Virus record (IMG/VR): IMGVR_UViG_3300042881_003253
Coordinates: 1 to 28,448 of that record
DNA from: a virus
Direction: 5' to 3' (one strand)
Length of the DNA: 28,448 nucleotides
The number at the start of each line of letters is the position of its first letter. Position 1 is the first letter of the stretch. Position numbers and translations under genes: made by a program. Below, piece by piece: positions 1-12,181 of the stretch. The notes under the pieces were generated by a model, which did not search any database, was not told the origin of the DNA, and was given only the letters and a program-made list of their open reading frames with translations.

Positions 1-254
1 CCTCCAAGCCGCTCCAGTAGGCCCCGCAGCGCGTCGGCCATTTCCTCATGTCGCTTGATATGCTCCGGCCCTTCCGCGAACATTCCGATTGCCAGCCAGA
101 CGGCTTCCCACTCATCGGCGGTGAGCGCGGGCTGCGGTGGATGAACCAGCGGGCCTCCTGCACCGCCTGACAAGGACGCCCGCAATGACTCTCGCTGCTC
201 GTCTGTGAGCGTCACGTTTATTTGCGACGGAACTTGACATTGTGTTTTAGTCAC
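1..254 (-). CDS. Small cassette protein ending in an LLER motif, partial (runs off left edge)
   Basis: Reading leftwards from a GTG at 254, at least 84 codons stay open to the window edge. The GTG overlaps the stop of the gene before it (GTGA, 251-254). The protein starts MTKTQCQVPS, contains TLTDEQRE and later LTADEWEAVWLAIG, and near the window edge has ALRGLLERLG. This pattern, LT(D/A)xExE then a helix and an LLER end, recurs in the genes at 251-580 and 2418-2642 and more weakly at 1761-2153, so these are probably paralogues. A second possible start is the GTG at 215 just before TLTDEQ. No enzyme motif is visible and the function is unknown. It most likely belongs to the same gene cassette as 251-580, whose left boundary lies outside the window. 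Confidence 0.6.
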   Translation of the reverse strand, partial: MTKTQCQVPSQINVTLTDEQRESLRASLSGGAGGPLVHPPQPALTADEWEAVWLAIGMFAEGPEHIKRHEEMADALRGLLERLG

Positions 255-580
255 TTCGTTCTCTCCAGTAGGTTGCGAAGCGTGTCAACGCGATCAAACT
301 CTTCGCAGTTTCCAGCGAGTTCTTCCGCCCACTCCACCGCCTCCCGCTCCTCGTCGGTGAGCGTGGGCTGAAAAATCCTCGCAATCCTCCGCGCCGCAAG
401 CCTCGCCCTGTCTTCGGCGTAACTGTTGCCGCCCTGCCACTTCTTTGTGGTGCCCTCGCGATACCACCGCATGGCGCAGTGGACGATTTCGGCACCCCGC
501 TCCAGTTGGGATTCCCCGTGAGAACCAGCGGATGCAGGAGACATCGCCTTGTCGTCCTGCGGTGTAGTTTCGTCACTCAT
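251..580 (-). CDS. Small cassette-encoded protein with attC-encoded leader and LTDEER/LLER family body
   Basis: 109 residues. The ATG at 578-580 lies inside an attC-like site; its Shine-Dalgarno AGGAG (minus strand) is the L' box of that site, six bases upstream. Residues 1-21 (MSDETTPQDD..., SPASAGSH) are encoded by the attC itself and nearly match the start of the protein at 1761-2153. The body is mostly helical and acidic, with LTDEEREAVEWAEEL and the end LRNLLERTK, shared with neighbouring small cassette genes. No membrane segment, no metal site and no known catalytic motif is seen. I do not know its function; the shared body suggests a family of small phage or cassette proteins duplicated in the array. 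Confidence 0.75.
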   Translation of the reverse strand: MSDETTPQDDKAMSPASAGSHGESQLERGAEIVHCAMRWYREGTTKKWQGGNSYAEDRARLAARRIARIFQPTLTDEEREAVEWAEELAGNCEEFDRVDTLRNLLERTK

Positions 581-608
581 GCGATGCTCCTGATCCTGCG
601 TGTTATCC
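519..608 (+). repeat. attC-like recombination site 1
   Basis: Boxes on the plus strand: R'' TGAGAAC at 519-525, L'' GGATGCAGGAG at 530-540, L' CTCCTGATCC at 587-596, R' GTTATCC at 602-608. L'' and L' pair perfectly if one G of L'' is left out (GGAT-g-CAGGAG with CTCCTG-ATCC). CATCGC/GCGATG extends the stem. R' GTTATCC is complementary to the R'' of the next site (GGATAAC, 1338-1344), not to its own R'', as expected if cassettes are swapped by cutting at G|TT in R'. Confidence 0.88.
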
Positions 609-610
609 GA

Positions 611-1414
611 TCAAAACAGTACGCCCTGACTGAGTCGCTTCGCCGCGATCTCGCAGTATCGCTCCTCAACCTCAATGCCGATGGCTGACCGGCCGCAGTT
701 GCGAGCCGCAACGAGTGTCGTTCCGCTACCCATGAAAGGGTCAACGCACGAGCCGCCGGGGGGCACAATCGTATTCACGATGTATTCAATCATCGGCAGC
801 CACTTTTGCGTCGGGTGGTCAACTTTCTCGTCAGCCCGAATGCCGTGCCTGTAGCCGTCGCAAGCGTAAACGTTGCACCGCTTGCCGCTTTCGTCGCCAA
901 ACCACGCCCCAGGGCGGTATGCGTACATAGCCAACTCAAAGGCAGACGGCCACCAGTTTCCGGGCATAGGTGGCGGCGGGCACTTCTTCACTCTCGCCCA
1001 CGGCTTGACGGTGTACCCGTGCTTCCGAACCTGCTGCGCGAGGTTTCCGTAGTGGTCGGGGTCGCAGAACAGGTGAAGAGCATTCGCCTTTGATGCAGCG
1101 GCATCGACTATTGTTGCCACCCTATCCATCACTCCCACGGGCTGGTCGAAATCGAACTGCATTCGCCGCAACTGAGTTTTCCCAGGCTTTCCTACGGAAT
1201 ACGTTGACTGACCAAACTCACCGACGATCCCATACGGCGGGTCTGTAACTACGGCGTCCACATCGGGAAGCAGAGAAACGAAGTCAATGGCGTCACCGTG
1301 GTAGATGGTGATCCCGTCCCGCTGGTAGTACGGTCGCGGATAACCACACGATGGAGCAGACCCGCCGGCTGCGTCCGTGGTGATCGCGTCGTCTTGTCTC
1401 GGCGTGCTGCTCAT
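611..1414 (-). CDS. DNA methyltransferase, amino-MTase of the beta order (N6-adenine or N4-cytosine)
   Basis: 267 residues from the ATG at 1414. The catalytic motif DPPY is at about residues 58-61, the S-adenosylmethionine-binding loop DPFMGSGTT at about 225-233, and HPTQKW lies shortly before it. Catalytic motif first and SAM motif last, with the target-recognition region between, is the beta-class arrangement of the N6/N4 MTase family (PF01555). No restriction endonuclease is adjacent, so it looks like an orphan phage enzyme that could protect DNA from host restriction. Two starts are possible: ATG 1414 (MSSTPRQDD, inside the attC site, matching the leaders of other cassette proteins) and ATG 1438 with a better Shine-Dalgarno (AAGGA) but lying in the neighbouring cassette. 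I prefer 1414 on cassette logic. The stop is 2 nt from the left R' box. Confidence 0.93.
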   Translation of the reverse strand: MSSTPRQDDAITTDAAGGSAPSCGYPRPYYQRDGITIYHGDAIDFVSLLPDVDAVVTDPPYGIVGEFGQSTYSVGKPGKTQLRRMQFDFDQPVGVMDRVATIVDAAASKANALHLFCDPDHYGNLAQQVRKHGYTVKPWARVKKCPPPPMPGNWWPSAFELAMYAYRPGAWFGDESGKRCNVYACDGYRHGIRADEKVDHPTQKWLPMIEYIVNTIVPPGGSCVDPFMGSGTTLVAARNCGRSAIGIEVEERYCEIAAKRLSQGVLF

Positions 1415-1428
1415 CTTCGGTGTTCTAC
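1338..1428 (+). repeat. attC-like recombination site 2
   Basis: R'' GGATAAC 1338-1344, L'' GATGGAGCAG 1350-1359, L' CTGCTCATC 1407-1415, R' GTTCTAC 1422-1428. GAT-g-GAGCAG pairs with CTGCTC-ATC, a different L sequence from the other sites but again fully complementary with one extra G. R' matches the R'' of site 3 (GTAGAAC). Confidence 0.87.
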
Positions 1429-1721
1429 GGCCGCCCATCGCATTCCTTGAAAACCTCTACCACGCGAGCCTTTGAGCAGTCTCCCAAGGGCAGTGTGTCC
1501 AGGGCTTCTAGGGCCGCCTTCATCGCTGCAAGCGTTGTCGCGTCTACAAGTTGGAGCGCTTCGGCGAGGCAAATAGCGTCCCCTAGGTTTGTCACCGCCG
1601 AGTAGATGTAGCCGACGAGCATTCCGAGATCATGCAGCCGTTCGGCCTTTGATCCTTGAACGTCAATCCAGTCCGTAGAACCACGCGATGCAGCGGACAT
1701 CTCATCAGCCTCGTCTGTCAT
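1425..1721 (-). CDS. Small cassette-encoded protein of unknown function
   Basis: 98 residues. The ATG at 1719-1721 lies in the centre of attC site 3, four bases after a strong AGGAGG; residues 1-16 (ending SAASRGST) are read from the attC. The remainder is acidic and alpha-helical, with a hydrophobic stretch (LVGYIYSAVTNLG) too short and polar for a confident membrane segment, then AMKAALEALDTL and ending ECDGRP. No known motif. Its stop at 1425 falls inside the R' box of site 2, so the gene fills the whole 335-bp cassette. Confidence 0.7.
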   Translation of the reverse strand: MTDEADEMSAASRGSTDWIDVQGSKAERLHDLGMLVGYIYSAVTNLGDAICLAEALQLVDATTLAAMKAALEALDTLPLGDCSKARVVEVFKECDGRP

Positions 1722-1763
1722 GGTGCCTCCTGTGTTCGATGCCGCTGATCGCTGGCGTTCTCA
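1675..1763 (+). repeat. attC-like recombination site 3
   Basis: R'' GTAGAAC 1675-1681, L'' GATGCAGCGG 1687-1696, L' CCGCTGATC 1742-1750, R' GTTCTCA 1757-1763. GAT-g-CAGCGG pairs with CCGCTG-ATC. R' is the complement of R'' of site 4 (TGAGAAC) and contains the stop codon of the minus-strand gene at 1761-2153. Confidence 0.88.
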
Positions 1764-2153
1764 ATGTATTACTGACGCCAATTTGCACTCAGCGCGGTGG
1801 CCTTGATTGCTCGGGAGATCGCCATGCTCGTCAGCGCCGTGTCCGGGTTTGATGCCGCCGCAGACAGGACAGCAGCGCCAGCCGGTGCAATACGAGTAGG
1901 CGGCCGACCACTCCAGCCCACGCAAGACAGCGACCGCAGAGACAGCCGATGCAACGGATCGCTCGTTCGTCCGCTCTAACAATCCGTCCAGCACCGCCGC
2001 TATCTCATTACACGCCACATCGTCCTCGTCGGCATAGGCGTCTCGCGCCCTCGCGATGCAGTGCCTTTCGTATTGCGTCAACGTCAAACCGTGAGAACCA
2101 GCGGATGCAGGAGGCATCGCTGCCGAGTCCTGCGGTGTAGTTTCGTCGCTCAT
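1761..2153 (-). CDS. Cassette-encoded protein with Cys/His-rich C-terminus
   Basis: 130 residues. The ATG at 2151-2153 is preceded by AGGAG contributed by the L' box of attC site 4. Residues 1-22 (MSDETTPQD..., PASAGSHG) are the attC-encoded leader, almost the same as in the gene at 251-580. LTLTQYERH and DGLLERTNE recall the LTDEER/LLER family. The C-terminal third has CCPVCGG, then GHGADEHGD, GHRAEC: Cys and His spaced as a possible zinc site, a pattern seen in many small phage proteins. It may bind nucleic acid, but that is inference. Confidence 0.72.
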   Translation of the reverse strand: MSDETTPQDSAAMPPASAGSHGLTLTQYERHCIARARDAYADEDDVACNEIAAVLDGLLERTNERSVASAVSAVAVLRGLEWSAAYSYCTGWRCCPVCGGIKPGHGADEHGDLPSNQGHRAECKLASVIH

Positions 2154-2181
2154 GCGATGCTCCTGATCCTGCGTGTTCTGT
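2092..2181 (+). repeat. attC-like recombination site 4
   Basis: R'' TGAGAAC 2092-2098, L'' GGATGCAGGAG 2103-2113, L' CTCCTGATCC 2160-2169, R' GTTCTGT 2175-2181. The stem continues past L (CATCGC with GCGATG), as in site 1, whose sequence is closely similar. R' matches R'' of site 5. Confidence 0.88.
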
Positions 2182-2183
2182 GG

Positions 2184-2384
2184 CTACGCCTGCCATTGAA
2201 GTTGCACGCCGCAGTCTGGGCAGTAAAGAAACGAGCGGGCGATGTGTTCCTTTCCGCACTTGGGGCAACGATACCAAGGGCAATACCACTCGTCGTACCC
2301 CATGTTCTGCGACTCACCGATGGACACAGAACCAGCGGATGCAGGAGAAGGCTCAGCATCGCCCTGCGTGTTGTCGTCGCTCAT
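2184..2384 (-). CDS. Small zinc-ribbon protein in a cassette
   Basis: 66 residues. The ATG at 2382-2384 lies in attC site 5, nine bases after AGGAG of the L' box. The first 23 residues are attC leader (MSDDNTQGD..., PSPASAGSV). The body has two CxxC knuckles, CPKCGKEH and CPDCGVQL, about 16 residues apart, with YCPWYR before the first: a typical small zinc ribbon. It could bind nucleic acid or a protein partner. The gene fills the 234-bp cassette and stops 2 nt past the left R' box. Confidence 0.78.
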   Translation of the reverse strand: MSDDNTQGDAEPSPASAGSVSIGESQNMGYDEWYCPWYRCPKCGKEHIARSFLYCPDCGVQLQWQA

Positions 2385-2415
2385 AGTTCGCCGCTCCTGA
2401 TCCTTGTCGTTCTGT
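2326..2415 (+). repeat. attC-like recombination site 5
   Basis: R'' ACAGAAC 2326-2332, L'' GGATGCAGGAG 2337-2347, L' CTCCTGATCC 2394-2403, R' GTTCTGT 2409-2415. GGAT-g-CAGGAG pairs with CTCCTG-ATCC. R'' matches R' of site 4 and R' matches R'' of site 6. Confidence 0.88.
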
Positions 2416-2417
2416 GG

Positions 2418-2642
2418 CTATCCGATCCGCTCCAGCAGGCTTTCCAGCGTGGATGCCGCCGCCCTACTGCGGACCTTGTCCTTTGGCTTTAGGTCGTCCC
2501 AGCCGACGCACAACGTATTCGCTGCCCATGCAATCGCGTCCCGTTCGGCCTCTGTGATCCGAAGGTTGTCAGCGTCGCTACGGAGAGCGGCCATCGCCTC
2601 CATGTGGTCAAACAGCATCCGGTCAAAGACAACGTCGCTCAT
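2418..2642 (-). CDS. Small LLER-family protein, third gene of a three-gene cassette
   Basis: 74 residues, ATG at 2640-2642 overlapping the previous stop (ATGA). It begins MSDVVFDRML and contains ITEAERDAIAWAANTL and ends STLESLLERIG, clearly related in layout to the genes at 251-580 and 1-254. Unlike the genes that start inside an attC it has no A-S-x-G-S leader, because it is internal to its cassette. Function unknown. Confidence 0.68.
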   Translation of the reverse strand: MSDVVFDRMLFDHMEAMAALRSDADNLRITEAERDAIAWAANTLCVGWDDLKPKDKVRSRAAASTLESLLERIG

Positions 2643-2845
2643 GGATTCTTCTGGGCTTCTGTTGGAGGCGGCGGAAACGGCATCCAGTGCGTTACTTGGA
2701 ACTCAGGATCGCCAGATATGTGCCAGACGCCGTCCTCCATGAACCCGCGATCCGGCAGATATTCCCCCGTCACCAAGTCGCAGACGAGGTATGACTCGTT
2801 GTCGTCCGGCAGCCTGTCTTCGACAGAGATCCATTCATTTGTCAT
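2639..2845 (-). CDS. DUF551-like protein
   Basis: 68 residues. The start MTNEWISVEDRLPDD and the later FQVTHWMPFPPPP fit the DUF551 pattern (WISVEDRLP ... THWMPLPxPP), a small family common in phages with no established biochemical role. The ATG at 2843-2845 overlaps the end of the preceding gene by 11 nt; only a weak purine-rich RBS is seen, so it may be translationally coupled. It is the middle gene of the cassette 2410-3188. Confidence 0.82.
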   Translation of the reverse strand: MTNEWISVEDRLPDDNESYLVCDLVTGEYLPDRGFMEDGVWHISGDPEFQVTHWMPFPPPPTEAQKNP

Positions 2846-3152
2846 CTCGCTCTCTCTTTCTTTTTGCCCGGCTGATGAACGTCACTGGGTTGTGTCCCAA
2901 ATGCTTGATCGCGGCCCGCAGGTCGGCGTTTTCGATCAGCATCCCTTCAATGAAATCCTTTGCCTCGTCCATTATTTCCAGCGCAAACAGCGGCACAATC
3001 TTCATGGCGTCTCCCCTGTCTGACAGTTGCTCCAAGAATGGAAGCGCCCGCAAGCGGTGGATGTCTGCCGCGCTTTGCCTTCGCCGCTCTGCACTTCCAT
3101 CCGCCACAGAACCAGACGATGCAACGGACGGCCCTGCTACGTCATGTGTCAT
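2835..3152 (-). CDS. Cassette-encoded helical protein with attC-encoded leader
   Basis: 105 residues. The ATG at 3150-3152 is inside attC site 6, with AGGAGG seven bases upstream. The leader MTHDVAGPSVASSGSV is encoded by the attC. The rest is charged and helical (LRALPFLEQL, EIMDEAKDFIEGMLIENADLRAAIKHLG) and may form a coiled coil, ending in a basic/acidic tail KRKRERDDK. No catalytic motif. It is the first gene of a three-gene cassette. Confidence 0.7.
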   Translation of the reverse strand: MTHDVAGPSVASSGSVADGSAERRRQSAADIHRLRALPFLEQLSDRGDAMKIVPLFALEIMDEAKDFIEGMLIENADLRAAIKHLGHNPVTFISRAKRKRERDDK

Positions 3153-3194
3153 GGTGAGTCCTCCTGTGGCCGCCGTTGATCTTCCGCGTTCTGT
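3106..3194 (+). repeat. attC-like recombination site 6 (right end of the array)
   Basis: R'' ACAGAAC 3106-3112, L'' GATGCAACGG 3118-3127, L' CCGTTGATC 3173-3181, R' GTTCTGT 3188-3194. GAT-g-CAACGG pairs with CCGTTG-ATC, and GGCC continues the stem. I find no further site to the right; the phage gene at 3198-3425 stops 3 nt past this R'. Confidence 0.88.
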
Positions 3195-3197
3195 CTC

Positions 3198-3425
3198 TCA
3201 CGCCCTGTGTCCTCCGCCCTGTGGCCGGCTGATCCCGGCGTTCCATTTAGCGATCTTCGCGCTCGCGGCCTCCTCGCTCTCGGCCATGCGTCGCCCGATG
3301 TGAGCCTCGCGGAGTTTGCGGGCTTCGATCTCGATCGCCGGAGCGAGCCGAAGACTCGACATGCTCGCGGCGTCCTCGGCAGGATCGACCCAGGGCTCGG
3401 ATCCGGTGTTCAGTGGTCGTCCCAT
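3198..3425 (-). CDS. Small protein coupled to the replication gene
   Basis: 75 residues, ATG at 3425 sharing a TAATG with the stop of the replication protein gene. It begins MGRPLNTGSEPW and has a helical, charged middle (EIEARKLREAHIGRRMAESEEAASAKIAKWN). No known domain. It is the last gene of the phage early operon before the cassette array; its stop is directly next to the outermost attC R' box, so the array was probably inserted just behind it without breaking it. Confidence 0.7.
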   Translation of the reverse strand: MGRPLNTGSEPWVDPAEDAASMSSLRLAPAIEIEARKLREAHIGRRMAESEEAASAKIAKWNAGISRPQGGGHRA

Positions 3426-4372
3426 TACGCCATCCCTCCGGTGATTTGCTTCAGCACGGCCGACCGTGCCTCCTCGATCCCGTCGTCCTTCGGCTGACGC
3501 GCCGACTTCGCAGCCTTCGCCGCCAGGAACTCCTCGCGGCGGCGAATCGTCTCGGGGTCCGCAGCGCCGCGAGCCCAGTCGGCCGCAGCCTGGGCGGCAG
3601 GTCGGCGGTCGTCTGCCGGTGGCCGGTGGCCGGGCTTGCCGGGTCGCTCGGTCAGCTCGTCGTAGCGGCCCTGGAGGACACGGGACACAAACCTCGGCCC
3701 GCAGAACTGCGGCAGCCCTACGGGCGTCCGAAAGTATCGGCAGCGAGCGAGCCGCCCGATCGCCGTCAGGGCGTCCTCCAGCCAGCCCGGCTCCGCGAGC
3801 CGGGCCAGAGCCTCGTCCGGTGGCTGCGGGGAGCGGTGAGGCGAGCCGGGGCCTGCCTTCCAGGCGTCCCGCAGGATTGCCCAGGCTGCCGGGTCCGGCT
3901 CTCCGTCCTCGCACGCGTGCGGTGGTGGTGGATTCTCTACCTCTCCTCTCCTCTCCTCTGGTGGCGCTTTTGTGGCGCGCGCAGCGCCACAGGATCGCGC
4001 TTTCTGTGGCGCTTCTGTGGCGCTCGGCGCGCCACGGGAGCGTTCCATCCTGTTTTTCTTCAGTGCCCTGGCCTTCGCGGAGTCGCTGCAATGCCGGTCG
4101 AATCTGGGGAACGTCAGCCCGTGGCCCGTCTCCTCCAGCCATCCAACCCGCACCATTTCAGCCGCAAACCCAGGACACCGGACGGTCCGGTCCACCCAGT
4201 CGAGCCCGACACCGTCGGCCTTGCCCTCCTGGGTGTGCCTGTCCGCCCAGGACCAGAGCCGGAACAGTTTCCCGATCACCGCGTCCTCGTCGAGGCGGCA
4301 GGCGGCCGCGAGCCGGATCGTAGCCGGGTCGTCCGCCAGGTCGTGCCGCATCTTCAGCCAGTCACCGGCCAT
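3425..4372 (-). CDS. Replication initiator-like protein with N-terminal winged-helix region
   Basis: 315 residues from the ATG at 4372. The N-terminal ~115 residues (GDWLKMRHDLADDPATIRLA, AVIGKLFRLWSWADRHT, later GWLEET, LTFPRFDRH) match the N-terminal pattern I associate with phage replication proteins of the DnaD/initiator type that read short helical winged-helix domains. A linker rich in Ala, Pro, Arg and Lys follows, containing a 15-residue tandem repeat (GAPSATEAPQKA, GAARATKAPPEE). The C-terminal half is helical with no recognisable motor motif; an ATPase role is not supported. It probably opens the origin or loads the host helicase. An iteron-like repeat inside this gene may be the origin, as in lambda O. 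Confidence 0.65.
   Translation of the reverse strand: MAGDWLKMRHDLADDPATIRLAAACRLDEDAVIGKLFRLWSWADRHTQEGKADGVGLDWVDRTVRCPGFAAEMVRVGWLEETGHGLTFPRFDRHCSDSAKARALKKNRMERSRGAPSATEAPQKARSCGAARATKAPPEERRGEVENPPPPHACEDGEPDPAAWAILRDAWKAGPGSPHRSPQPPDEALARLAEPGWLEDALTAIGRLARCRYFRTPVGLPQFCGPRFVSRVLQGRYDELTERPGKPGHRPPADDRRPAAQAAADWARGAADPETIRRREEFLAAKAAKSARQPKDDGIEEARSAVLKQITGGMA
3961..4035. repeat. Iteron-like repeat within the replication gene (candidate origin)
   Basis: GTGGCGC occurs directly at 3961, 3972, 4006 and 4017 and inverted (GCGCCAC) at 3984 and 4029: six copies in 75 bp. They form two 30-bp units (3961-3990, 4006-4035) about 26/30 identical with a 45-bp period. A polypyrimidine run of CTCTC repeats (about 3941-3959) lies directly beside them. 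Placement inside a replication protein gene is typical of lambda-like origins; function is inferred. Confidence 0.5.
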
Positions 4373-4637
4373 GGTCTGCCTCCTTACTGATCCGCTCGTT
4401 CACCAAGTCGAGCAGACTCCGGGCCTCCTTGACCGTCAGCCGTTCGTCGTCCATCGCGTCGAGGATCAGGCCCTGGACGCCGACCGGCGGCCGGCTCGCG
4501 GTCTTCGTCATCAGGTCGGGCGAGAACTTCGCGCTGCCGACCGGAGGTCGGAGACGAAGGTCGACCGGCGAGGCGACCTCGATCAGGGCCGAGAACTCCG
4601 AGACGGCGTTCGTCGAATGAATGATGTCACTGCTCAC
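4362..4637 (-). CDS. Small early protein of unknown function
   Basis: 91 residues, GTG start at 4637 in a GTGA overlap with the previous gene. The sequence is polar with a helical end (MDDERLTVKEARSLLDLVNERI). It contains two RPPVG segments (RLRPPVGSAKF and SRPPVGVQG) that look like a short internal repeat. It overlaps the start of the replication gene by 11 nt, indicating translational coupling. No domain recognised. Confidence 0.65.
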   Translation of the reverse strand: MSSDIIHSTNAVSEFSALIEVASPVDLRLRPPVGSAKFSPDLMTKTASRPPVGVQGLILDAMDDERLTVKEARSLLDLVNERISKEADHGR

Positions 4638-4942
4638 TTCCCAGCCCTCCGATACTCGTCCTCACCTCTAGCGACCTCGCGGCCCGTCCGCTCGATCGCC
4701 CCGACCTTCCGCAGCTCGTGGATCCTTTTCGAGACCTGGGCGACGGTGAGGCCCGACCGCTCCGCGATCTCCGTCTGGCCGGCAGGCCCGGCCGCCAGGG
4801 CCTCGAGGATCCGCCTGGCGTGCTCGCCGCGAATCGCCGGCACCGCGGCCGCGGCCTTGTGCGATGTCGCCGGATCATCGCGGCGAGCGGCCGCGAAGAT
4901 CGGCAGCGACTCGATCGCTTCCATGCTGGTCCGTAGCGTCAT
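4634..4942 (-). CDS. Winged helix-turn-helix protein
   Basis: 102 residues. After a short N-terminus comes DDPATSHKAAAAVP, a signature of small phage winged-helix proteins. Residues of about 43-90 read ARRILEALAAGPAGQTEIAERSGLTVAQVSKRIHELRKVGAIERTG, a clear MarR/DprA-type winged HTH: helix, recognition helix, then the wing. It probably binds DNA, either as a regulator of the early operon or as a replication accessory. Start ATG 4942, 2 nt after the previous stop. Confidence 0.78.
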   Translation of the reverse strand: MTLRTSMEAIESLPIFAAARRDDPATSHKAAAAVPAIRGEHARRILEALAAGPAGQTEIAERSGLTVAQVSKRIHELRKVGAIERTGREVARGEDEYRRAGK

Positions 4943-4944
4943 GA

Positions 4945-5163
4945 TCAGTCTCCCGTCCAGTTAGTGCCGGCCCGCGGCCCGGCGTAGCCGAGCTGCTGCG
5001 GAGCGTTGCCCCACCGCTCGAACCAGGCCTTCCGGACGGCCAGCTCGTCGGCGTAGGGTCGCGCTCCGTCCATGGATTCCATGGCGACCGCGTTGGCAAT
5101 CCGCATCGCGGCGTGCCGGTCGGCTGCCGTGTTGATCGCGTCGATCGCGTCCGTGATCGTCAT
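4945..5163 (-). CDS. Small early protein of unknown function
   Basis: 72 residues, ATG at 5163 preceded by GGAGGG. It begins MTITDAIDAINTAADRHAAMRIANAVA and ends GPRAGTNWTGD. Helical N-terminus, Trp-rich middle (AWFERWGNAPQQLG). No known domain. First gene after a structured 166-bp gap, so it may be the first gene of a downstream transcript segment. Confidence 0.68.
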   Translation of the reverse strand: MTITDAIDAINTAADRHAAMRIANAVAMESMDGARPYADELAVRKAWFERWGNAPQQLGYAGPRAGTNWTGD

Positions 5164-5329
5164 CCGTCCCTCCGTGTGTTGGCCCCGTGTCGTGGGGCAT
5201 CCGCCTAGTGCCGGTCGTCAAGGCGAACGACCTCACTAGGAGCCGGTGTTATGTCGCGACCGCCGGCAGCGCTCTCCCTGTGGCCGAGATAGGCAGCCAC
5301 TACGGCCGGGAGCGGCCGTGGACGTTAGG
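5164..5329. promoter_or_regulatory. Intergenic region with three hairpins
   Basis: Three inverted repeats lie in the gap between genes 5330-5725 and 4945-5163. (1) ACGGCC/GGCCGT at 5302-5319, just behind a stop codon. (2) 5204-5240: CCTAGTG and GGTCGT pair with ACGACC and CACTAGG around an 8-nt loop with only a CC/T interruption. (3) GCCCC/GGGGC at 5182-5198. No U-run follows, so classical terminators are doubtful; an attenuator, RNA-processing site or protein-binding site is possible. No gene is seen here. Confidence 0.5.
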
Positions 5330-5725
5330 TCACTGAACCCTGAACTTGACCCCTTCCGCAGTCGTTGAAGTCACGACGCAGTCGTAGCCAGAACCAGTTT
5401 CAAGCCCAAATGATGAGAGAGATTGCGGACGGACTGTAAACCGCACGGTGAGGCTGACCGATTTCTTGCCACCACTACTAAGAGCGTTACCTTCGCCGTT
5501 GTTGTTCGTCCGAGCACAAGTCCACTCCATCAAGTCCTCGTTGAAGTCAGCGGTGACTTTGTCGCCGTCGATCCACCGCATCCGAGCGAGCAGCGACTCG
5601 CTAAAACGAATACCTACGGCTACCCTCTTTGCTCCGCTGCCGGTGGCAAAGACTCGAACGTCTGTGAGTTGGTCGCCTGAACGCCGCCCACCCCTGGCAG
5701 ACCGTCGAAGCTGAATGATTCCCAT
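5330..5725 (-). CDS. Beta-rich early protein of unknown function
   Basis: 131 residues, ATG at 5725 preceded by AGGAG eight bases upstream. Basic N-terminus (LRRSARGGRRSG), then alternating beta-like segments (DVRVFATGS, RVAVGIRFSESLL, SVSLTVRFTVRP, DCVVTSTTAEGVKFRV). The base composition appears lower in GC than the flanking genes. It sits behind the SSB-like gene, so a role in replication is possible, but no motif supports this. Confidence 0.65.
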   Translation of the reverse strand: MGIIQLRRSARGGRRSGDQLTDVRVFATGSGAKRVAVGIRFSESLLARMRWIDGDKVTADFNEDLMEWTCARTNNNGEGNALSSGGKKSVSLTVRFTVRPQSLSSFGLETGSGYDCVVTSTTAEGVKFRVQ

Positions 5726-5801
5726 CTGCTCATCTCCTGTCGTTGGGATCTAAAATCAACCGTTCGCCAACGCGGCGAGCGGAACTGTTTGCCTTCAAAA
5801 G

Positions 5802-6314
5802 TCAAAAAGGAATGTCGTCCCCAGGCATCCGCGAGGCTTCGTCGGCCTTCTGTGCTGGCGTCCGCTTCACTGGCGGCCTCGAGGTCGGCGGAGCGACCGC
5901 CCGCTCGACCTGCGGCTTCGCGGTCGCGGTCTCGACGACCTGCTCGGCCGGCAGGAACTCGCCGACGTTGACGAACGTCTTCCCGTTGCCGGCCCGGTGG
6001 TAAATCCGTGCCCGGACGCGACGGCCGACCAGGTCGGTGATCTCGCCGGCGGCCCACTCTTCGCGGGTCATACCGACGGCCTGGCGGAGGCTCGACAGGA
6101 TCCGCCGGCCCCAGTCGGCCTTCGGGATCTTGGCGAACACCCAGCCGAAACGTCGCTCGTCGTGGACGAGTCGGAACTCGATCTTCTCGCCGTGGTCGAT
6201 CACCTCGCGGACCTGGAACGAGTGGTCGCCCTCGGGGACCAGCTCTCGATCCGGAGCCCGCGAGTCGTCGCGGACAGCAACCGGCGGAAAATCATCATCA
6301 AGACCCCAGTCCAT
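5802..6314 (-). CDS. Single-stranded DNA-binding protein-like (C-terminal DDIPF)
   Basis: 170 residues. A beta-rich core (HSFQVREVIDHGEKIEFRLVHDE, LVGRRVRARIYHR, FVNVGEFL) is followed by a disordered Pro/Ala/Arg linker (about residues 125-160) and ends in DDIPF, the acidic-hydrophobic tip by which SSBs recruit partners. The middle part (LSSLRQAVGMTREEWA) resembles DUF669-type phage SSB-like proteins, rather than the bacterial OB-fold SSB sequence. Two genes from a Sak4-like recombinase, the usual partner, so it probably coats ssDNA in replication or recombination. Start ATG 6314, overlapping the preceding gene by 17 nt. Confidence 0.75.
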   Translation of the reverse strand: MDWGLDDDFPPVAVRDDSRAPDRELVPEGDHSFQVREVIDHGEKIEFRLVHDERRFGWVFAKIPKADWGRRILSSLRQAVGMTREEWAAGEITDLVGRRVRARIYHRAGNGKTFVNVGEFLPAEQVVETATAKPQVERAVAPPTSRPPVKRTPAQKADEASRMPGDDIPF

Positions 6315-6564
6315 CGCGTGTCTCCTGTTCGTGGGATTTCGCGGTCGCGAACTCGATCACTGCGATCAAGTGGTCGCGGCCGTAGTGGTTGTGTCCGTAC
6401 TGTTTCTCCGGCTTCGTCAGGTGAGCGATCGCCGTGCGGATCTCGTAGCGGGTCATCCGATAGCCTGCGGCCTGGCTCGCGTCGACGAGGTCCGAGCAGC
6501 GGAACCAGTCGCGATCGTGGTCGTGACGCAGGCCCGAAAACGTCAGGTGTTCGAGGCTGGTCAC
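6298..6564 (-). CDS. Small protein between recombinase and SSB-like gene
   Basis: 88 residues from the GTG at 6564, which overlaps the recombinase stop (GTGA). It begins (M)TSLEHLTFSGLRHDHDRDWF and has RCSDLVDASQAAGYRMTRYEIRTAIAHL, helical segments that could form a small HTH-like fold. His-rich. No known domain; position suggests a replication/recombination accessory. Confidence 0.65.
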   Translation of the reverse strand: MTSLEHLTFSGLRHDHDRDWFRCSDLVDASQAAGYRMTRYEIRTAIAHLTKPEKQYGHNHYGRDHLIAVIEFATAKSHEQETRDGLGS

Positions 6565-7493
6565 GACGCGACCTCCTCGACCGGCTCGATCTCTTTGTGC
6601 CGCTCGTTCACCCGGTCGGTGAGCTGCGACCACTCGTCGGCCGTGATCTGGTCGGTCGAGACCAGCTCGTCGAGACGGTTGCCGATCTTGCCGAGCGTCC
6701 GGACGTTCGCCGCCTGGGCGATGAAAAGGACGATCTGGTAGTACAGCGACCCTTCGGGCGGCCCCTTCGCGGATCGGACCTCGACCGCCGGCCTGGCGGG
6801 CGTCGTGCCGTCGGAGAGCCAGGTGGCGAGCTGCCGGCCGAGGTCCTCGCCGGCCTCGCGGATCACAGCGTCCTTCAGGAACGCGGCCCGCGTCTTCGTC
6901 ACCACCAGGTCGTGGTCCTGGGTCACATCGCCGACGACCGTGAACTCGTATTCGAGGCCGTCACGCTGGACCGGCTGGAGCCCGACCTTCCGGACCTGGT
7001 TCCGGCCGCCGACGTTCTCGACGACATACTCGACCTTAGACCGGAGGGTACAGATCACATGGAGCGGAGCCCCGAGGATCGCGTCGACGAGCGAGTTGTG
7101 CCTCGGGGTCGCGTCACGCCAGGCCCCGAAGTTGTTTCCCGACTGGCTCGCCTTCGACTTCCTGTCGACTAGTTCAAGAATCCCGTCCTTTCCTGACCAC
7201 GCATGGGACAGCGAGTCGATCACGAGCGTCGCGTATCCGCCGTCGGCTGCGGCCTTGATTGCGTCGATAAACCGCTCGACCCCGTAGGTGTCCAGCTCGA
7301 TCACGTCGAAGTCGAGCCCACGCTCGCCGGCGTAGAGGCTCGCGGAGCCTCGCTCCGTGTCGATCACGGCGACGCGGCCCCCGAGGCCTGCCGCGATCCG
7401 AAGAGCCGTCATGGTCTTTCCGCTGCCGGCCGGTCCGATCAGACCGAGCCGCAGCTTCGCGGCTGCCTTCGTTGCTCTCTTGAATCCGCTCAT
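6561..7493 (-). CDS. Sak4-like RecA-fold ATPase (ssDNA annealing/recombination)
   Basis: 310 residues. Walker A GPAGSGKT at residues 20-27, then VAVIDTERGSAS near 41-52, and Walker B TLVIDSLSHAW at 89-99. The first ~215 residues form a RecA-like ATPase core; this length and order, with IDTERGSA after Walker A, fit the phage Sak4 group of single-strand annealing proteins. The C-terminal ~90 residues (QIVLFIAQAANVRTLGKIGN...) are a helical tail. With the nearby SSB-like protein it likely mediates recombination-dependent replication. The ATG at 7493 has GAGGAGG in front. A RadA/DnaB-type helicase is less likely given the short length. Confidence 0.85.
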   Translation of the reverse strand: MSGFKRATKAAAKLRLGLIGPAGSGKTMTALRIAAGLGGRVAVIDTERGSASLYAGERGLDFDVIELDTYGVERFIDAIKAAADGGYATLVIDSLSHAWSGKDGILELVDRKSKASQSGNNFGAWRDATPRHNSLVDAILGAPLHVICTLRSKVEYVVENVGGRNQVRKVGLQPVQRDGLEYEFTVVGDVTQDHDLVVTKTRAAFLKDAVIREAGEDLGRQLATWLSDGTTPARPAVEVRSAKGPPEGSLYYQIVLFIAQAANVRTLGKIGNRLDELVSTDQITADEWSQLTDRVNERHKEIEPVEEVAS

Positions 7494-7759
7494 CTCGAAT
7501 ACCTCCTCACGGTGTCACAGTCGATCCACCCTGTGTCCCGGAACACCCGGAGCAGGGTCTCGCGGTCCGGCTCCGCCGGCCGCGAACACTTGCCATGGCC
7601 TCCAGCCAGGCCGGCATCCCGCCGGCGTCCTTCTCGGCTGGGCTCCGCCCGGCCGAACTCATCCAGTGATCGGAAGTAAGCCAGCCCGACGATCGCGAGC
7701 CATGCACAGCCGAAGGCGATCCCGAGGACGGCTCCGACGAACAATGCGGCGGCGTTCAT
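7490..7759 (-). CDS. Small protein with one N-terminal membrane segment
   Basis: 89 residues, ATG at 7759 overlapping the previous stop (ATGA). Residues 3-29 (AAALFVGAVLGIAFG...IVGLAYF) are one hydrophobic helix; the rest is charged and basic (PSREGRRRDAG, ETLLRVFRDTG). A small inner-membrane protein of an early operon; function unknown. Confidence 0.65.
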   Translation of the reverse strand: MNAAALFVGAVLGIAFGCAWLAIVGLAYFRSLDEFGRAEPSREGRRRDAGLAGGHGKCSRPAEPDRETLLRVFRDTGWIDCDTVRRYSR

Positions 7760-8016
7760 TTCCAGACCTCGCCTTCCTGGTCCTCGAGGTACGGCATCGC
7801 GTGTTCGAGGGCCGCACGAGCCCGGAGCAGGACGGCCCGGTTCACCGGGCAGCCGCAGGCGTCGACCTCGTCGATCAGCGACTCCAGAGCCCGGAGAGGC
7901 CTCCAGGCCGCGATCGCCAGGTGGCGAGCGAGCCGGGCACCGCGAGCGATCGGGTGGTGCCGGTCGTGGGTGTTCCGGTGGAGGGCCGTGTCGTTTCGCG
8001 AGATCATGCGTCCCAT
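7756..8016 (-). CDS. Small His/Arg-rich early protein
   Basis: 86 residues, ATG at 8016 with AAGGAG nine bases upstream. Basic and His-rich N-terminus (MGRMISRNDTALHRNTHDRHH), helical body (ARHLAIAAWRPLRALESLIDEVDACGCPV, LLRARAALEHAMPYLEDQ). No known domain; probably cytoplasmic. Confidence 0.65.
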   Translation of the reverse strand: MGRMISRNDTALHRNTHDRHHPIARGARLARHLAIAAWRPLRALESLIDEVDACGCPVNRAVLLRARAALEHAMPYLEDQEGEVWK

Positions 8017-8027
8017 GGTCTGGCTCC

Positions 8028-8294
8028 TTAGAAGGGCAGGATCGCGCCGTCCGGCCACGGCCGGCCGTCGATCACGCGGAGCGTCTTCTCGTCGTCGGTC
8101 TCGACCACGACGAGCGGCCGGTCGCCTTCCTGGATTCGGACCACGCGGCCCGCTTCCCATTCGGTGTCCGTGTGGGTCCGCAGCCGGTAGGCAATCCGGT
8201 CGCCGATGCTCGGCAGGTGACAGGCCGTCGGCCGTCCGTAGGTCTCGGCCATGCCGTCCGCTGCGGCCTGATATTCGCGTTCGTGGGCGTCCAT
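8028..8294 (-). CDS. First gene of the early operon, small protein
   Basis: 88 residues, ATG at 8294 with a GAAAGGA region upstream. N-terminus helical (MDAHEREYQAAADGMAE), then a beta-rich part (SIGDRIAYRLR, EWEAGRVVRIQEGDRPLVVVETDDEKTLRVI) that reads like a small SH3-like barrel. It is promoter-proximal, behind the operator-like palindrome at 8323-8336, so it is probably made first after infection or induction. Function unknown. Confidence 0.68.
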   Translation of the reverse strand: MDAHEREYQAAADGMAETYGRPTACHLPSIGDRIAYRLRTHTDTEWEAGRVVRIQEGDRPLVVVETDDEKTLRVIDGRPWPDGAILPF

Positions 8295-8320
8295 CTCGCG
8301 TCCTTTCGTTGATGGTCTGA

Positions 8321-8349
8321 AGTGAACACGCGTACATGCGTTTCGTCAA
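8321..8349 (-). promoter_or_regulatory. Candidate early promoter with overlapping operator
   Basis: On the minus strand, TTGACG (8344-8349) is followed after 17 nt by TTCACT (8321-8326), a strong -35 and weak -10 box. The palindrome TGAACACGCGTACA (8323-8336, consensus TGNACRCGYGTNCA) overlaps the -10 region, where a bound repressor would block transcription of the early operon beginning at 8294. Predicted from sequence only. Confidence 0.5.
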
Positions 8350-8423
8350 ACGTTTTTAGGTGTGGTTTCGTCCGTGAAAAACACTGAGCGGAGGAGTCGA
8401 AAAGTCGTTCTGTCGTTTTTTGG

Positions 8424-8446
8424 CTTCGGTAAACGATTCACCGAAG
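8424..8446. repeat. Inverted repeat CTTCGGT-N9-ACCGAAG
   Basis: Perfect 7-bp arms around a 9-nt spacer. Its left half contains CGGTAAACG (8427-8435), which recurs at 8998-9006 just upstream of the excisionase-like gene. Candidate binding site for excisionase, integrase arm or a regulator. Confidence 0.5.
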
Positions 8447-8645
8447 AAGAACACCGGCGACACTGGCGAGCAGCTCAAGCAGATCGTGAACGGCCCTTGC
8501 GGCCGGCGAATCACTGCCGAGGTCCTGGCCGATCCGGACCAGAACTAACGACTGAAGGGCTGATGACCAGCGGCGTCGCATTGAGTGGCACTCCGTTGCC
8601 GAGAGCATCCATCGCCGGCTGCATGCCGGCCTCGAACGGTGGATA

Positions 8646-8667
8646 CGATTACCAGTTTCGGTAATCG
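8646..8667. repeat. Inverted repeat CGATTACC-N6-GGTAATCG
   Basis: Perfect 8-bp arms around AGTTTC, in the non-coding 8295-8716 stretch. Related to the palindrome at 8424-8446 (both carry CGGTAA and CGATT). Besides these repeats and the promoter I see no gene in 8295-8716 on either strand; this region and 8969-9221 are the likely control and attachment region. Confidence 0.5.
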
Positions 8668-8716
8668 CGTCAAGACCAGTTCAGGTTTTTTTTCAAAACC
8701 CAAGAAATGCCCAGCT

Positions 8717-8968
8717 TCAGCGGGCTTTGCGCTTGGCCCGCTTCGACTTGGCGGAGGCGGCTTTCGCCTCTGCCTTGCGGATGTTCGAGTTTGGGGCAAG
8801 CTGCCCGCGGAGGGCCTTGCATCCTTCGACGCTGACCATCCAGGCCCTGGCGTTCAGCTTCAGGCCCTGGAGCTTGCCCTCGCGGATCCGGAGCCGGATC
8901 AGGCCGTCGGTACAGCCTGCGATGTCGCAGGCCTCTTCGACCGAACACCATTTCCCGTCGGGCGTCAT
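8717..8968 (-). CDS. MerR-like helix-turn-helix protein, candidate excisionase
   Basis: 83 residues from the ATG at 8968, chosen because AAGGA lies eight bases upstream; ATG 8977 is an alternative. WCSVEEACDIAGCTDGLIRLRIREGKLQGLKLNARAWMVS is the short winged-HTH of the MerR/excisionase type (helix, turn, recognition helix with LRLRIREGKL, then a wing). The C-terminal third is a Lys/Ala/Arg-rich tail (KAEAKAASAKSKRAKRKAR) suited to DNA binding. It is divergent from the integrase gene and flanked by palindromes, fitting a recombination directionality factor or a regulator. Confidence 0.68.
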   Translation of the reverse strand: MTPDGKWCSVEEACDIAGCTDGLIRLRIREGKLQGLKLNARAWMVSVEGCKALRGQLAPNSNIRKAEAKAASAKSKRAKRKAR

Positions 8969-9126
8969 CGTGACCATCCTTCGCAATCTACCGTCAGCGG
9001 TAAACGGGTCAAACTGTCCAACCTGCCCGACCCTCGCGACCGGCCCGATCGGTGTGTCCGCTTGAGTCGGTCACGCCGCGGTCCGATAGTCGAGGTGTCG
9101 GGTAGATTTCGAGTGGAGGCGAGGGG

Positions 9127-9140
9127 AGTACAAACGTTCA
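9127..9140. promoter_or_regulatory. Third, weaker operator-like site
   Basis: AGTACAAACGTTCA, on the minus strand TGAACGTTTGTACT, matches TGNACRCGYGTNCA in 11 of 14 positions. It lies 22 bp left of the better site at 9163-9176. Confidence 0.35.
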
Positions 9141-9162
9141 GGTGAGGGGAGTCGAATAGTGG

Positions 9163-9176
9163 TGAACGCGTGTACA
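9163..9176. promoter_or_regulatory. Operator-like palindrome before the integrase gene
   Basis: TGAACGCGTGTACA fits TGNACRCGYGTNCA and differs at two positions from the site at 8323-8336. Both are preceded by G and the two enclose the regulatory region, so one repressor could control the integrase and the early operon together. No repressor gene is visible in the window. Confidence 0.5.
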
Positions 9177-9221
9177 GTCCGGTAGGCTGCCCGGCATCTA
9201 AACAAAAAAGGAAGTGATGCC

Positions 9222-10148
9222 ATGCGTTCAATGCCGTTGCGTGATGCGTTTCGTCGGTATGCCTTGCTCCGTGAGTTGAAGCCCCACACGGTCTCGCTCT
9301 ACGGGATGCTCTTCGATCGCCTGGAGCGATTCTTGAAACGACCGCCAACGGTCGGGGACCTCGAGGACGTGGTCGTCGCGGAGTATTTGGAATGGCGACG
9401 AGTGACGCCTGGGTGGCGTGATCGCCTGCCGAAGCCCGCCACGGTCCGGAAGGACCGGAACATGATCCGGGCCGTCTGGGAATACCTCGCCCGTAAGAAA
9501 ATCACTACAGAGTTTCCCGAGGTCCCGCGTGTCAAAGTCCCGAAGACAATCCCTCTGGGTCGTGCCTACACAGCCGACGAGGTCGGCTCTCTGATCAGGG
9601 CAGCGAAGCGTCGCATCGGAAGGACGGGCGGCCTGCCGTCGCGCTGGTGGTGGTCGACGCTCATCTACGCGGCCGTATGTACGGGCGAGCGATTCGAAGC
9701 CCTCACGTCGCTCCGCTGGGGCCAGGTGGACCTCGACCGTCGTCGCGTGATCTTCCTGGCCGGGACGAGGAAAGGAGCGACCCGCGACATCGAGCGGGCA
9801 GTCACGCCGCAGCTCGCCGCGATGCTCGCGGAGCACCGTCGCGGGCCGGACGACCTGGTCTGGCCTTGGGACCGGGCGACCCGCAGCCACTGGGCCTCTC
9901 TACAAGTCCTGTGCCGATCTGCCGGCGTCGAATACCGGGGGCGAGGCTTCCACGGATTCCGCCGCATGGCCGCCTCCTACGCGGCCCTGGCGGGCGGAGC
10001 CGCCGCGGCGACCCAGCTCCTCGACCACAGCGACCCGGCCCTCCAGGCCGTCTATGTGGACCCACTTATCTGCCCGCGGGACACCTGCTCGGTCGACACC
10101 CTGCCGCCGCTGGACCTGGGCGAACTCGACGCGACCCGGCACTCCTGA
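9222..10148 (+). CDS. int: Tyrosine recombinase (phage integrase)
   Basis: 308 residues, the only clear plus-strand gene. The N-terminal ~105 residues are a SAM-like core-binding domain (LKPHTVSLYGMLFDRLERFLK). The catalytic domain shows R157 (CTGERFEAL), K184 (GTRKGAT, beta-hairpin), H244 and R247 (HGFRR), H269 (LLDHSD) and the nucleophile Y278 (QAVYVDP). All active residues are present. It would integrate and excise the phage with the excisionase-like protein encoded divergently. The integron-specific insertion of IntI is not seen, so it is not an integron integrase. Start ATG 9222 with AAGGA nine bases upstream. The last 97 bp overlap the end of a convergent gene. Confidence 0.93.
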   Translation: MRSMPLRDAFRRYALLRELKPHTVSLYGMLFDRLERFLKRPPTVGDLEDVVVAEYLEWRRVTPGWRDRLPKPATVRKDRNMIRAVWEYLARKKITTEFPEVPRVKVPKTIPLGRAYTADEVGSLIRAAKRRIGRTGGLPSRWWWSTLIYAAVCTGERFEALTSLRWGQVDLDRRRVIFLAGTRKGATRDIERAVTPQLAAMLAEHRRGPDDLVWPWDRATRSHWASLQVLCRSAGVEYRGRGFHGFRRMAASYAALAGGAAAATQLLDHSDPALQAVYVDPLICPRDTCSVDTLPPLDLGELDATRHS

Positions 10149-10534
10149 TGGCAGGCGGCATATCCCGCGATGTCGATCCCGCCGTCGTCGGTGGCCGCTG
10201 CCCCGAGCTGCCGCGAGACCTTGTCGAGGATCATCACGAGCGCCCAGTCGGACGCCGTGAACGTCGTCCCGAATGCGGAGTTGACCATCGCGGCCGTCCT
10301 GGCGAAGTGTTCCGCCGGCGGTCCGTACTTGCCGTGCCGGTCGCGGACGGCTGCTATCGACTGCTCTAACATGTGCTCGGCCGCTGTTCTCGTTTCGATC
10401 ATGTGTCGCTCCCTTAGTTCTCGGATCATGGTCAGAGCGAACGAGGCTAGAGAACCTCCCGTGCCAGTCCAGCAATTGGCCGGACCGAGCCTGCGGCAGA
10501 GCTGCTCCGCGGCGGCGAGGTCGGCGTCGGTCAC
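10052..10534 (-). CDS. DUF6378-like protein
   Basis: 160 residues from a GTG at 10534 in a GTGA overlap. The pattern DRHGKYGPPAEHFARTAAMVN (residues 65-85), ASDWALVMILDKVSR (94-108) and DGGIDIAGYAA (117-127) fits DUF6378, a helical family often carried by phages, possibly related to nucleotide-processing all-alpha proteins; its activity is not established. The family motif ends near residue 130, and residues 129-160 (Ser/Arg-rich) are read from DNA that also encodes the C-terminus of the integrase on the other strand. The tail is probably a recent extension after a rearrangement. Confidence 0.8.
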   Translation of the reverse strand: MTDADLAAAEQLCRRLGPANCWTGTGGSLASFALTMIRELRERHMIETRTAAEHMLEQSIAAVRDRHGKYGPPAEHFARTAAMVNSAFGTTFTASDWALVMILDKVSRQLGAAATDDGGIDIAGYAACHQECRVASSSPRSSGGRVSTEQVSRGQISGST

Positions 10535-10815
10535 GGCAGCCGGTATCCCAGCGACCACAGAATCCGGGCGAGATCGCGGCCGGCCCCTGAGACGGTCTCC
10601 TCGGCCAGGTCGGGGAAAAGCTGGTGGAGACCCTCGTGGATCTCCGTCTCGAGGCGAGCCCGGCCCCGGAGCCGCTGGTCGATCAGGACCTTCCGCTCTA
10701 GGTCCGGCCGCCGCTCGTCGGGCGTGATCGACCAGCCCGCGGCCCGGCCCCGGAGGCGGGCATACCTCCACAGGACGCGGAGGCCGCGGATCTGGAAGTG
10801 ATGATCGCCACTCAC
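10531..10815 (-). CDS. Small zincin-like protein (HExxH)
   Basis: 94 residues from GTG 10815 (GTGA overlap with the preceding gene). ETEIHEGLHQLFPDLAEE contains the HExxH zinc motif (H60, E61, H64) followed by acidic residues E72/E73 as a possible third ligand. RDLARILWSLGYRL at the end is a frequent partner motif in this type of short phage zincin. The N-terminal half is beta-rich and basic. A small metallopeptidase is suggested; substrate unknown, and whether it is active is not provable from sequence. Confidence 0.72.
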   Translation of the reverse strand: MSGDHHFQIRGLRVLWRYARLRGRAAGWSITPDERRPDLERKVLIDQRLRGRARLETEIHEGLHQLFPDLAEETVSGAGRDLARILWSLGYRLP

Positions 10816-11831
10816 GACGACCTCACTCGGCCGTCGGCCGTGATCCTGTGGTTCGACACGTCGAAGGATCCGTCGGCGTGGGTCGTCACGGCCGCGAATC
10901 CGTGGTTCCACTTGTTCAATCTCGCGTACTCGGGACGAAGGTCACACAGGCAGCCGGTCGACCAGCAAAACACCTCATGCCCGAACATGTCGGGTTCGCA
11001 GTGTCCCGAGGTCCGGTGGCCGTGGCCCTCGAGGACGGTGTGGTGGAGTCGCAGGAACGCTCCGCGGGCCTGGTTCACCGGGGCCGAGATCCCCTTCCCC
11101 TTCTCGTGTCCGTGAAGGATCGGGAGTTTGCCGGCCATGATCGGCCGCTGGTCGTCGACGAGCGTGATGTCGTGCTGGTCGAGACGGAGCCAGGACGCGA
11201 GCCCCATCTCCGGCTCGTCGGATATCTCCGGGGCGTGTTGCCACAGCCAATGCGCCCAACGCTCCTCATGGTTTCCCGTTTTGAACACGATCGGAATCGC
11301 CGGGAACTCCTGGCGGATCCACGACACGAGCTGGCGGATCTGCTCGATCTCGCCCTTGAAGTTTCGGTGTCGCGGATTCTTCGTCCACCGACTGATCGCG
11401 TAGAAGTCGCAGGTGTCGCCGTTCAAGACCAGGGCGTCGATCCCGCTCGACTTCAGGTCGGCGACCGCGGCCCCGAGGGCGACCTCGGAGTGATACGGGA
11501 CGTGGATGTCGGACAGGACGCCGATCGTCCCGACGACTCCCAGGTCGTGAGTCTCCCAGGGCTCGGCCTTGCTCTTCGGCATCGTCACCACCTCGCCGGC
11601 GACCCGCGGCTGCCGGTGGAGCGACTTGTCGGCCGCATTGCCCCGCTGCTGCCGACCCTTGATTCCGAGCTGGTGCCGGATCCGCTGATATCCCTGTTGC
11701 AGCGTGATCGCTCCGCCGGTCTCGGCCGCGAGCCGGCGGCCCAGCGTCCGGGCCGGGGCGTCCGGGTGCCGCTCGACGAGCTGCCGGGCCATACGCGTGA
11801 TCTCGTCGCCGCCGATCTGGCCCTTGCGCAT
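10812..11831 (-). CDS. Metallophosphoesterase (calcineurin-like) with N-terminal HTH-like region
   Basis: 339 residues. Residues 1-60 are basic and helical (DEITRMARQLVERHPDAPARTLGRRLA, ITLQQGYQRIRHQLG), HTH-like. From about 100 come the dimetal motifs: SDIH (D108, H110), NGDTCDF (D139), TGNHEE (N187, H188), ILHGHEKGKG and GHGHRTS. Together these form a complete calcineurin-like phosphoesterase. Substrate could be a nucleic acid end, a cyclic nucleotide or a phosphoprotein; nothing in the sequence decides. The start ATG 11831 follows GGAGG. First gene of a coupled trio with the zincin-like and DUF6378-like genes. Confidence 0.9.
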   Translation of the reverse strand: MRKGQIGGDEITRMARQLVERHPDAPARTLGRRLAAETGGAITLQQGYQRIRHQLGIKGRQQRGNAADKSLHRQPRVAGEVVTMPKSKAEPWETHDLGVVGTIGVLSDIHVPYHSEVALGAAVADLKSSGIDALVLNGDTCDFYAISRWTKNPRHRNFKGEIEQIRQLVSWIRQEFPAIPIVFKTGNHEERWAHWLWQHAPEISDEPEMGLASWLRLDQHDITLVDDQRPIMAGKLPILHGHEKGKGISAPVNQARGAFLRLHHTVLEGHGHRTSGHCEPDMFGHEVFCWSTGCLCDLRPEYARLNKWNHGFAAVTTHADGSFDVSNHRITADGRVRSS

Positions 11832-11887
11832 CCGGCCCTCCGTGTTGCGGTAGGCGGCCGTCCATGGCCGCGGGCCTTCACCCTACG

Positions 11888-12181
11888 CTATGGGGTCCCC
11901 GGATCAATCTCCGCCGGGGCCGTCGAGCCAGGCGGCAGGCCGAGATATTTCGCCCCGGCAGCGTTTAGCGCCGCCTGACGCTCGGGACAGCCGCAGGGGC
12001 CGCCGACCACGGCCTCGACTCGCTGCTTCGTGATCCCGATCGAGGAGAGGCCAGCGGCGACTCGGTCGCCCAGGCCGGGCGGAGGCGTGCCGCAGTTTCG
12101 GCGGACGGACGGCGACGAGACAGCAGCACCGCAGACGCGGCAGCGGAGCGACGCAGGGTCAATGTCGCAGTCCCTGTGCAT
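11888..12181 (-). CDS. Small Cys-rich protein next to the tail fibre gene
   Basis: 97 residues, ATG at 12181, 4 nt after the preceding stop. CRVCGAA near the N-terminus, RNC, and GPCGCPERQAALNAAG in the second half give two paired Cys groups, possibly a zinc site. The helix DRVAAGLSSIGITKQRVEAVVG lies between. The GPCGCPER..ALN pattern recurs in small phage proteins near fibre genes as far as I remember, with no known role. It may bind metal or assist the fibre. Confidence 0.68.
   Translation of the reverse strand: MHRDCDIDPASLRCRVCGAAVSSPSVRRNCGTPPPGLGDRVAAGLSSIGITKQRVEAVVGGPCGCPERQAALNAAGAKYLGLPPGSTAPAEIDPGTP

Follow-up and report, generated by a model that had tools for sequence, protein, structure and literature searches.

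Integrons are regarded as bacterial gene-capture platforms, with sense-oriented cassettes expressed from the Pc promoter. The chromosomal integrons of Planctomycetota (intI, then attI, in the same direction) resemble the arrays described here in attC architecture and in their G|TT cassette boundaries, and in at least two genomes also in the attI sequence. They carry intI and sense genes, whereas the phages have no intI and carry antisense genes, often starting inside the attC. Phage CALINs (Qi et al. 2023, PMC9892861) are likewise clusters of attC sites lacking an integrase, and have DNA methyltransferase cassettes. The genes of TJE1 and PH101 run in the usual direction, unlike those of the present arrays, and the accessible parts of that paper hold no report of systematically reversed genes or of an attC as antisense start. 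The present related arrays have an attI in addition, a site that a CALIN by definition can lack. ORF-11 at attI1 aids the translation of the first cassettes (PMC4670013). There, too, a cassette gene owes its translation initiation to a recombination site; ORF-11 is, however, a separate short sense ORF at attI, whereas here each attC would start its own reversed gene. Phage CALINs and translation help at attI are already known. In the openly accessible literature searched, there was no account of systematically reversed cassettes, of an attC as antisense start, or of such intI-less viral arrays with their own attI.

The window, i.e., the whole stretch of DNA analysed, is a complete IMG/VR record of 28,448 bases and a fragment of a tailed phage, whose genes for structure and replication lie mostly on the minus strand. 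We consider it likely that its left region is the distal part of a phage-borne cassette array, an intI-less viral integron that is served in trans by a host IntI and whose antisense cassettes are transcribed as part of the phage operon. By megablast, positions 1–12000 had no match in a phage collection, and blastn of attI or attC against phage isolates gave none either. The pattern AGAACCAGNNGATGCANNGGA was found in 82 stretches from 84,980 bacterial and archaeal species genomes; according to the attC finder only two of these stretches (L071 and L079, both Planctomycetota) were real arrays.

attC sites and reversed cassette genes

A rule-based attC finder, which looks for R''/R' boxes, two stem blocks and two extrahelical positions on the L'' side, recognized six sites with a score of at least 20 between 519 and 3194, all on the plus strand, and none at this score on the minus strand of the window. 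Shuffled windows gave a chance expectation of ~0.1 matches. The features of the region are:

143–264, plus strand: possible decayed attC of the next cassette leftward, with a box-like GTTCTCT at ~258–264; found by inspection, unscored by the finder and uncertain
251–580, minus strand: cassette gene, start inside attC1 with a Shine-Dalgarno AGGAG from the L' stem, end beside the box-like GTTCTCT; protein MSDETTPQDDKAMSPASAGSHG...
519–608, plus strand: attC1, R'' TGAGAAC, R' GTTATCC, L'' GATgCAGGAGa
611–1414, minus strand: cassette gene for an N6/N4 DNA methyltransferase (PF01555, 5e-21)
1338–1428, plus strand: attC2, R'' GGATAAC, R' GTTCTAC; its R'' is the reverse complement of the attC1 R' (same cassette)
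1425–1721, minus strand: cassette gene, start in attC3 with Shine-Dalgarno AGGAGG, stop TAG inside the attC2 R'
1675–1763, plus strand: attC3, R'' GTAGAAC, R' GTTCTCA
1761–2153, minus strand: cassette gene, start in attC4 with Shine-Dalgarno AGGAG, stop TGA inside the attC3 R'
2092–2181, plus strand: attC4, R'' TGAGAAC, R' GTTCTGT
2184–2384, minus strand: cassette gene for a zinc-ribbon-like protein, start in attC5 with a Shine-Dalgarno
2326–2415, plus strand: attC5, R'' ACAGAAC, R' GTTCTGT
2418–2642, minus strand: gene 3, in transcription order, of the distal cassette
2639–2845, minus strand: gene 2 of the distal cassette, DUF551 (PF04448)
2835–3152, minus strand: gene 1 of the distal cassette, start in attC6 with Shine-Dalgarno AGGAGG; protein MTHDVAGPSVASSGSV...
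3106–3194, plus strand: attC6, the distal attC, R' GTTCTGT at 3188–3194, adjoining a phage gene
3198–3425, minus strand: phage gene at the distal array border, conserved in the related phage L162
3425–4372, minus strand: phage replication initiation protein, upstream of the array (phrog_2509, 7e-47)

All six sites are imperfect palindromes (R''-L''...L'-R') of the layout AAC-n5-GAT-g-6 bases-(a) ... complement ... GTT. The unpaired bases, a G and six bases later an A (GATgCAGGAGa), lie on the L'' arm of each. Since the strand that recombines is set by the extrahelical bases (Bouvier et al. 2009, PMC2727003), the plus strand is the attC top strand, as a sequence-only reading of this DNA had proposed. 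Phage TJE1, whose attC sites were assayed with IntI1 in PMC9892861, served as polarity control; the finder gave three plus-strand attC at the 3' ends of plus-strand genes, in agreement.

Against these six plus-strand sites, all cassette genes of the window lie on the minus strand, antisense to the attC and in the direction of phage transcription. Most minus-strand genes here end in or just after an R' box: the stops at 611, 2184 and 2418 are 2 nt and that of the phage gene at 3198 is 3 nt beyond the box, and those at 1425 and 1761 lie inside it, their TAG and TGA being part of GTAGAAC and TGAGAAC. Both the orientation and the gene ends had been noticed from the sequence alone, and both stand. 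Five genes (starts at 580, 1721, 2153, 2384 and 3152) begin inside their own attC, with a Shine-Dalgarno taken from its L' arm or spacer. The methyltransferase gene starts either inside attC2 (1414, internal, no Shine-Dalgarno) or upstream at 1438. The distal cassette spans 2409–3188 and holds three genes.

We surveyed gene orientation in 130 cassettes from related IMG/VR phages, by scoring codon usage trained on genes away from the arrays. From 110 scorable cassettes, 108 were antisense, none sense and two unclear, compared with 26 sense, two antisense and two unclear in Planctomycetota integrons with IntI. This scoring supersedes an earlier count by ORF length (75 antisense, 9 sense, 42 ambiguous), in which GC-rich frames, open on both strands, left many calls ambiguous. 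In the phage cassettes the median distance of the stop from G|TT was 5 nt, and some stops lay inside the box (TGAGAAC, GTAGAAC and similar). In some phages (L044, L045 and L049) the array is flanked by terminase-like and portal-like genes, whereas in the window and L050 it adjoins a replication gene; its direction is always that of the phage operon.

attI, recombinase and array ends

From the polarity of the attC sites, an attI is expected at the left of the array. Related phages have a recurrent sequence left of the first attC, ending CCGCAGAAACACTG|GTT. This attI-like motif occurred in 74 IMG/VR records, 61 of which had attC to its right on the same strand; only two matches, both low-scoring, had attC to the left, and most of the remaining records ended too soon. 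Phages L026 and L212 did not differ at a single position (100% identity) in the 4003 nt before G|TT and then carried different cassettes. Other near-identical pairs also switched cassette at the attI G|TT (L026/L030, 99.7%; L217/L228, 96.3%). These switches exactly at G|TT between near-identical phages show that the attI, at the left end, is in natural use. The best score of an attI matrix in the window was −4.0. The window starts inside the array, to the right of the point where the related phages have attI at the array 5' end, and its own attI is therefore not visible; we infer that it lies beyond the left end, the array probably extending left of position 1. Three phages (L204, L207 and L220) had an attI-like site with no recognised attC for several kb rightward; these sites are possibly empty, or hold single cassettes whose attC was lost.

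The matrix, built from 62 such sites, was run on 42 Planctomycetota intI loci, and in five the best match lay just 3' of intI. G043 and G044 scored 17.8 and 14.3 bits, L332 8.1, and two more were weaker, the background maximum being −0.3 over 336,000 positions; two matches were thus far above background and three of the five weak. A search of 392 Planctomycetota genomes with the attI motif, one mismatch allowed, gave five matches, near chance level. At the sequence level, the phage attI resembles the attI of those Planctomycetota integrons in which intI is directed at the array.

The TIGR02249 model recognised no IntI above its cut-off in 92 array-phage records (42 + 50), whereas 50 of 294 Planctomycetota genomes had one. 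As viral records are fragments, individual phages may still have an intI. The arrays are not classed as complete integrons, as no IntI exceeded the cut-off; with two or more neighbouring attC and no intI in the vicinity, the window is a CALIN. Several IntI genes or fragments per genome were present in the Planctomycetota G261, G292, G319 and G239. Relative to attC, the intI of Planctomycetota occurs in two layouts, divergent or in the same direction.

With a host-like attI kept and no integron integrase encoded, the phages seem to swap genes by an enzyme that they do not encode themselves. We think a host IntI the more likely one, because the phage attI resembles the host attI. A possible though doubtful alternative is the phage's own tyrosine recombinase, encoded in the window at 9222–10148 on the plus strand, opposite to its neighbours. 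Proteins matching PF00589 were present in 35 of 50 array-phage records, 27 of 30 compared recombinases formed one family (25–67% identical to that of the window), and the R boxes of the phages deviate from GTTRRRY, which might reflect another enzyme. On the other hand, the window's recombinase is of the ordinary phage integrase class (phrog_1) and below the IntI model, its gene lies far from the array and on the other strand, two array phages over 40 kb (G027 and G042) had no PF00589 match, and the attI next to intI in hosts is similar to that of the phages.

The cassettes behaved as units. We compared R'' with R' in 69 non-redundant cassettes, taken from related phages as well as from the window; in 56 of them R'' was the reverse complement, at all four variable bases, of the R' that bounds its own cassette at the opposite end. 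Shuffling gave 8/69 as expectation and a maximum of 19 in 2000 shuffles, and R'' matched the following R' in only 7/69. Excision and insertion at G|TT produce such pairing, which accounts for the match at the cassette ends. We dropped this matching as evidence of polarity, since it is identical for both polarities.

Arrays that came from a host integron and have since become immobile would also have no IntI in the phages and a few degenerate attC, as the finder reported. Such fossil arrays are very improbable, given that the first cassettes differ exactly at G|TT between near-identical phages, that 182 cassettes fell into 144 families, that R'' and R' at the two cassette ends still match, and that the orientation is opposite to that of host cassettes.

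The sequence-only reading had also taken 3198 as the entry point of the array, an attI-like target directly after a stop codon. The gene at 3198–3425 does end 3 nt from the outermost R' box, and the array is absent there in L162, a phage close to the window that lacks it. In L162 the protein of this gene is 98.6% identical and the region around 3198 96% identical; the same gene and stop codon are followed immediately by unrelated sequence, with no R' box, target sequence or empty attI behind the stop. Because L162 diverges there with no box, 3198 is a distal array boundary or a mosaic junction and not an empty attI. With attI conserved at the opposite end in related phages, entry at 3198 is even less probable than immobility, and we abandoned it. 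At L162 8690–8720, where homology ends at the stop of the gene matching window 3198, another small gene comes next.

The least credible reading is that we have the attC polarity wrong and that gene and attC share one direction, as they ordinarily do: R-box matching, the same for both polarities, cannot tell them apart, but every site has its extrahelical bases on the L'' arm, the finder polarity agrees with TJE1 and Planctomycetota host genes, and attI was found on the predicted side.

attC sites as putative translation starts

Across the phages, about half of the cassettes with a long attC had a start codon inside it. In total 47 genes started inside an attC, 35 of them with a Shine-Dalgarno, at few fixed distances; a further 60 started elsewhere, mostly just past R'' and often with a Shine-Dalgarno of their own. 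Read in antisense, the L''-R'' half is CCT GCA TCC GCT GGT TCT, or PASAGS, and the N-terminal leader encoded by the attC ends in (P/A)ASAGS. Where the attC had an open ATG leader, the gene was in its frame in 47/53 cases (one third expected, p 8e-17), and in 7/22 where there was no open leader. An ATG with an open frame was present in 126/166 long phage attC vs. 2/33 host attC.

The R boxes differed as well. An antisense stop was found in 6/212 phage sites vs. 30/69 host sites, and a GTTRRRY box in 1/212 vs. 43/69. The phage boxes keep the GTT core, and the variable part is mostly GTTCTNN or GTTATNN. The GTTRRRY consensus is loose, so the phage boxes are a variant and not excluded from attC. 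With a usual R box such as GTTAGGC, the end of the leader would be a stop (GGT TAG). A second job of attC as translation start would explain the loss of GTTRRRY. The leader spacer showed no excess of changes at the third codon position (184/351/354). The leader frame is thus kept open while the peptide is not visibly conserved, and we make no claim of selection on it.

Proposed integron class, host and cargo

The integron of this phage group would be reduced to an attI and an attC array, with no intI. Cassettes would be excised and inserted at the G|TT of the R' box, with attI at the array end that is downstream in phage transcription, and recombination would most likely be provided in trans by the IntI of a Planctomycetota host. 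Because the cassette genes are reversed relative to attC, the phage operon could transcribe them from the other side with no need for Pc. In about half of the long-attC cassettes, the attC bottom strand would act as translation start: its spacer or L' arm would hold Shine-Dalgarno and ATG, and its L''-R'' half would be read in the frame of the gene, giving a hydrophilic (P/A)ASAGS linker. Translation from the attC starts, IntI acting in trans and the identity of the host are all inferred here. The array phages, which are uncultured, probably infect Planctomycetota, judging from the resemblance of attI and attC and from terminases 25–39% identical.

With less assurance than for the window itself, we favour a class of intI-less viral integrons: phages of Planctomycetota with a host-like attI and their own pool of reversed cassettes, exchanged by host IntI, whose attC would serve for recombination and, with an in-frame leader, also as antisense start. 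If so, the promoter of a host integron would transcribe the wrong strand of these cassettes, and they could be read only inside a phage operon. Viruses appear to run a stripped integron with the opposite gene polarity. On this view phages would rely on host IntI, the cassettes would form a pool specific to viruses, and a single DNA element under the joint constraints of recombination and coding would become open to testing.

Few of the 112 cassette proteins had Pfam matches: DUF551 (8), DNA methylases (2), HNH nucleases, HTH and zinc ribbons. The modification enzymes hint, as a guess, at protection of phage DNA. In the alignment of the 112 proteins, a short C-terminal stretch immediately before the R' box (ERxAIxWAxxxL...TLRxLLERL) was seemingly common to many otherwise unrelated cassette proteins, and could be a common domain. 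The two Planctomycetota integrons L071 (2722–3140) and L079 (1761–2197) had in common a small two-gene cassette, HicB/HicA-like by eye and in the usual sense orientation.
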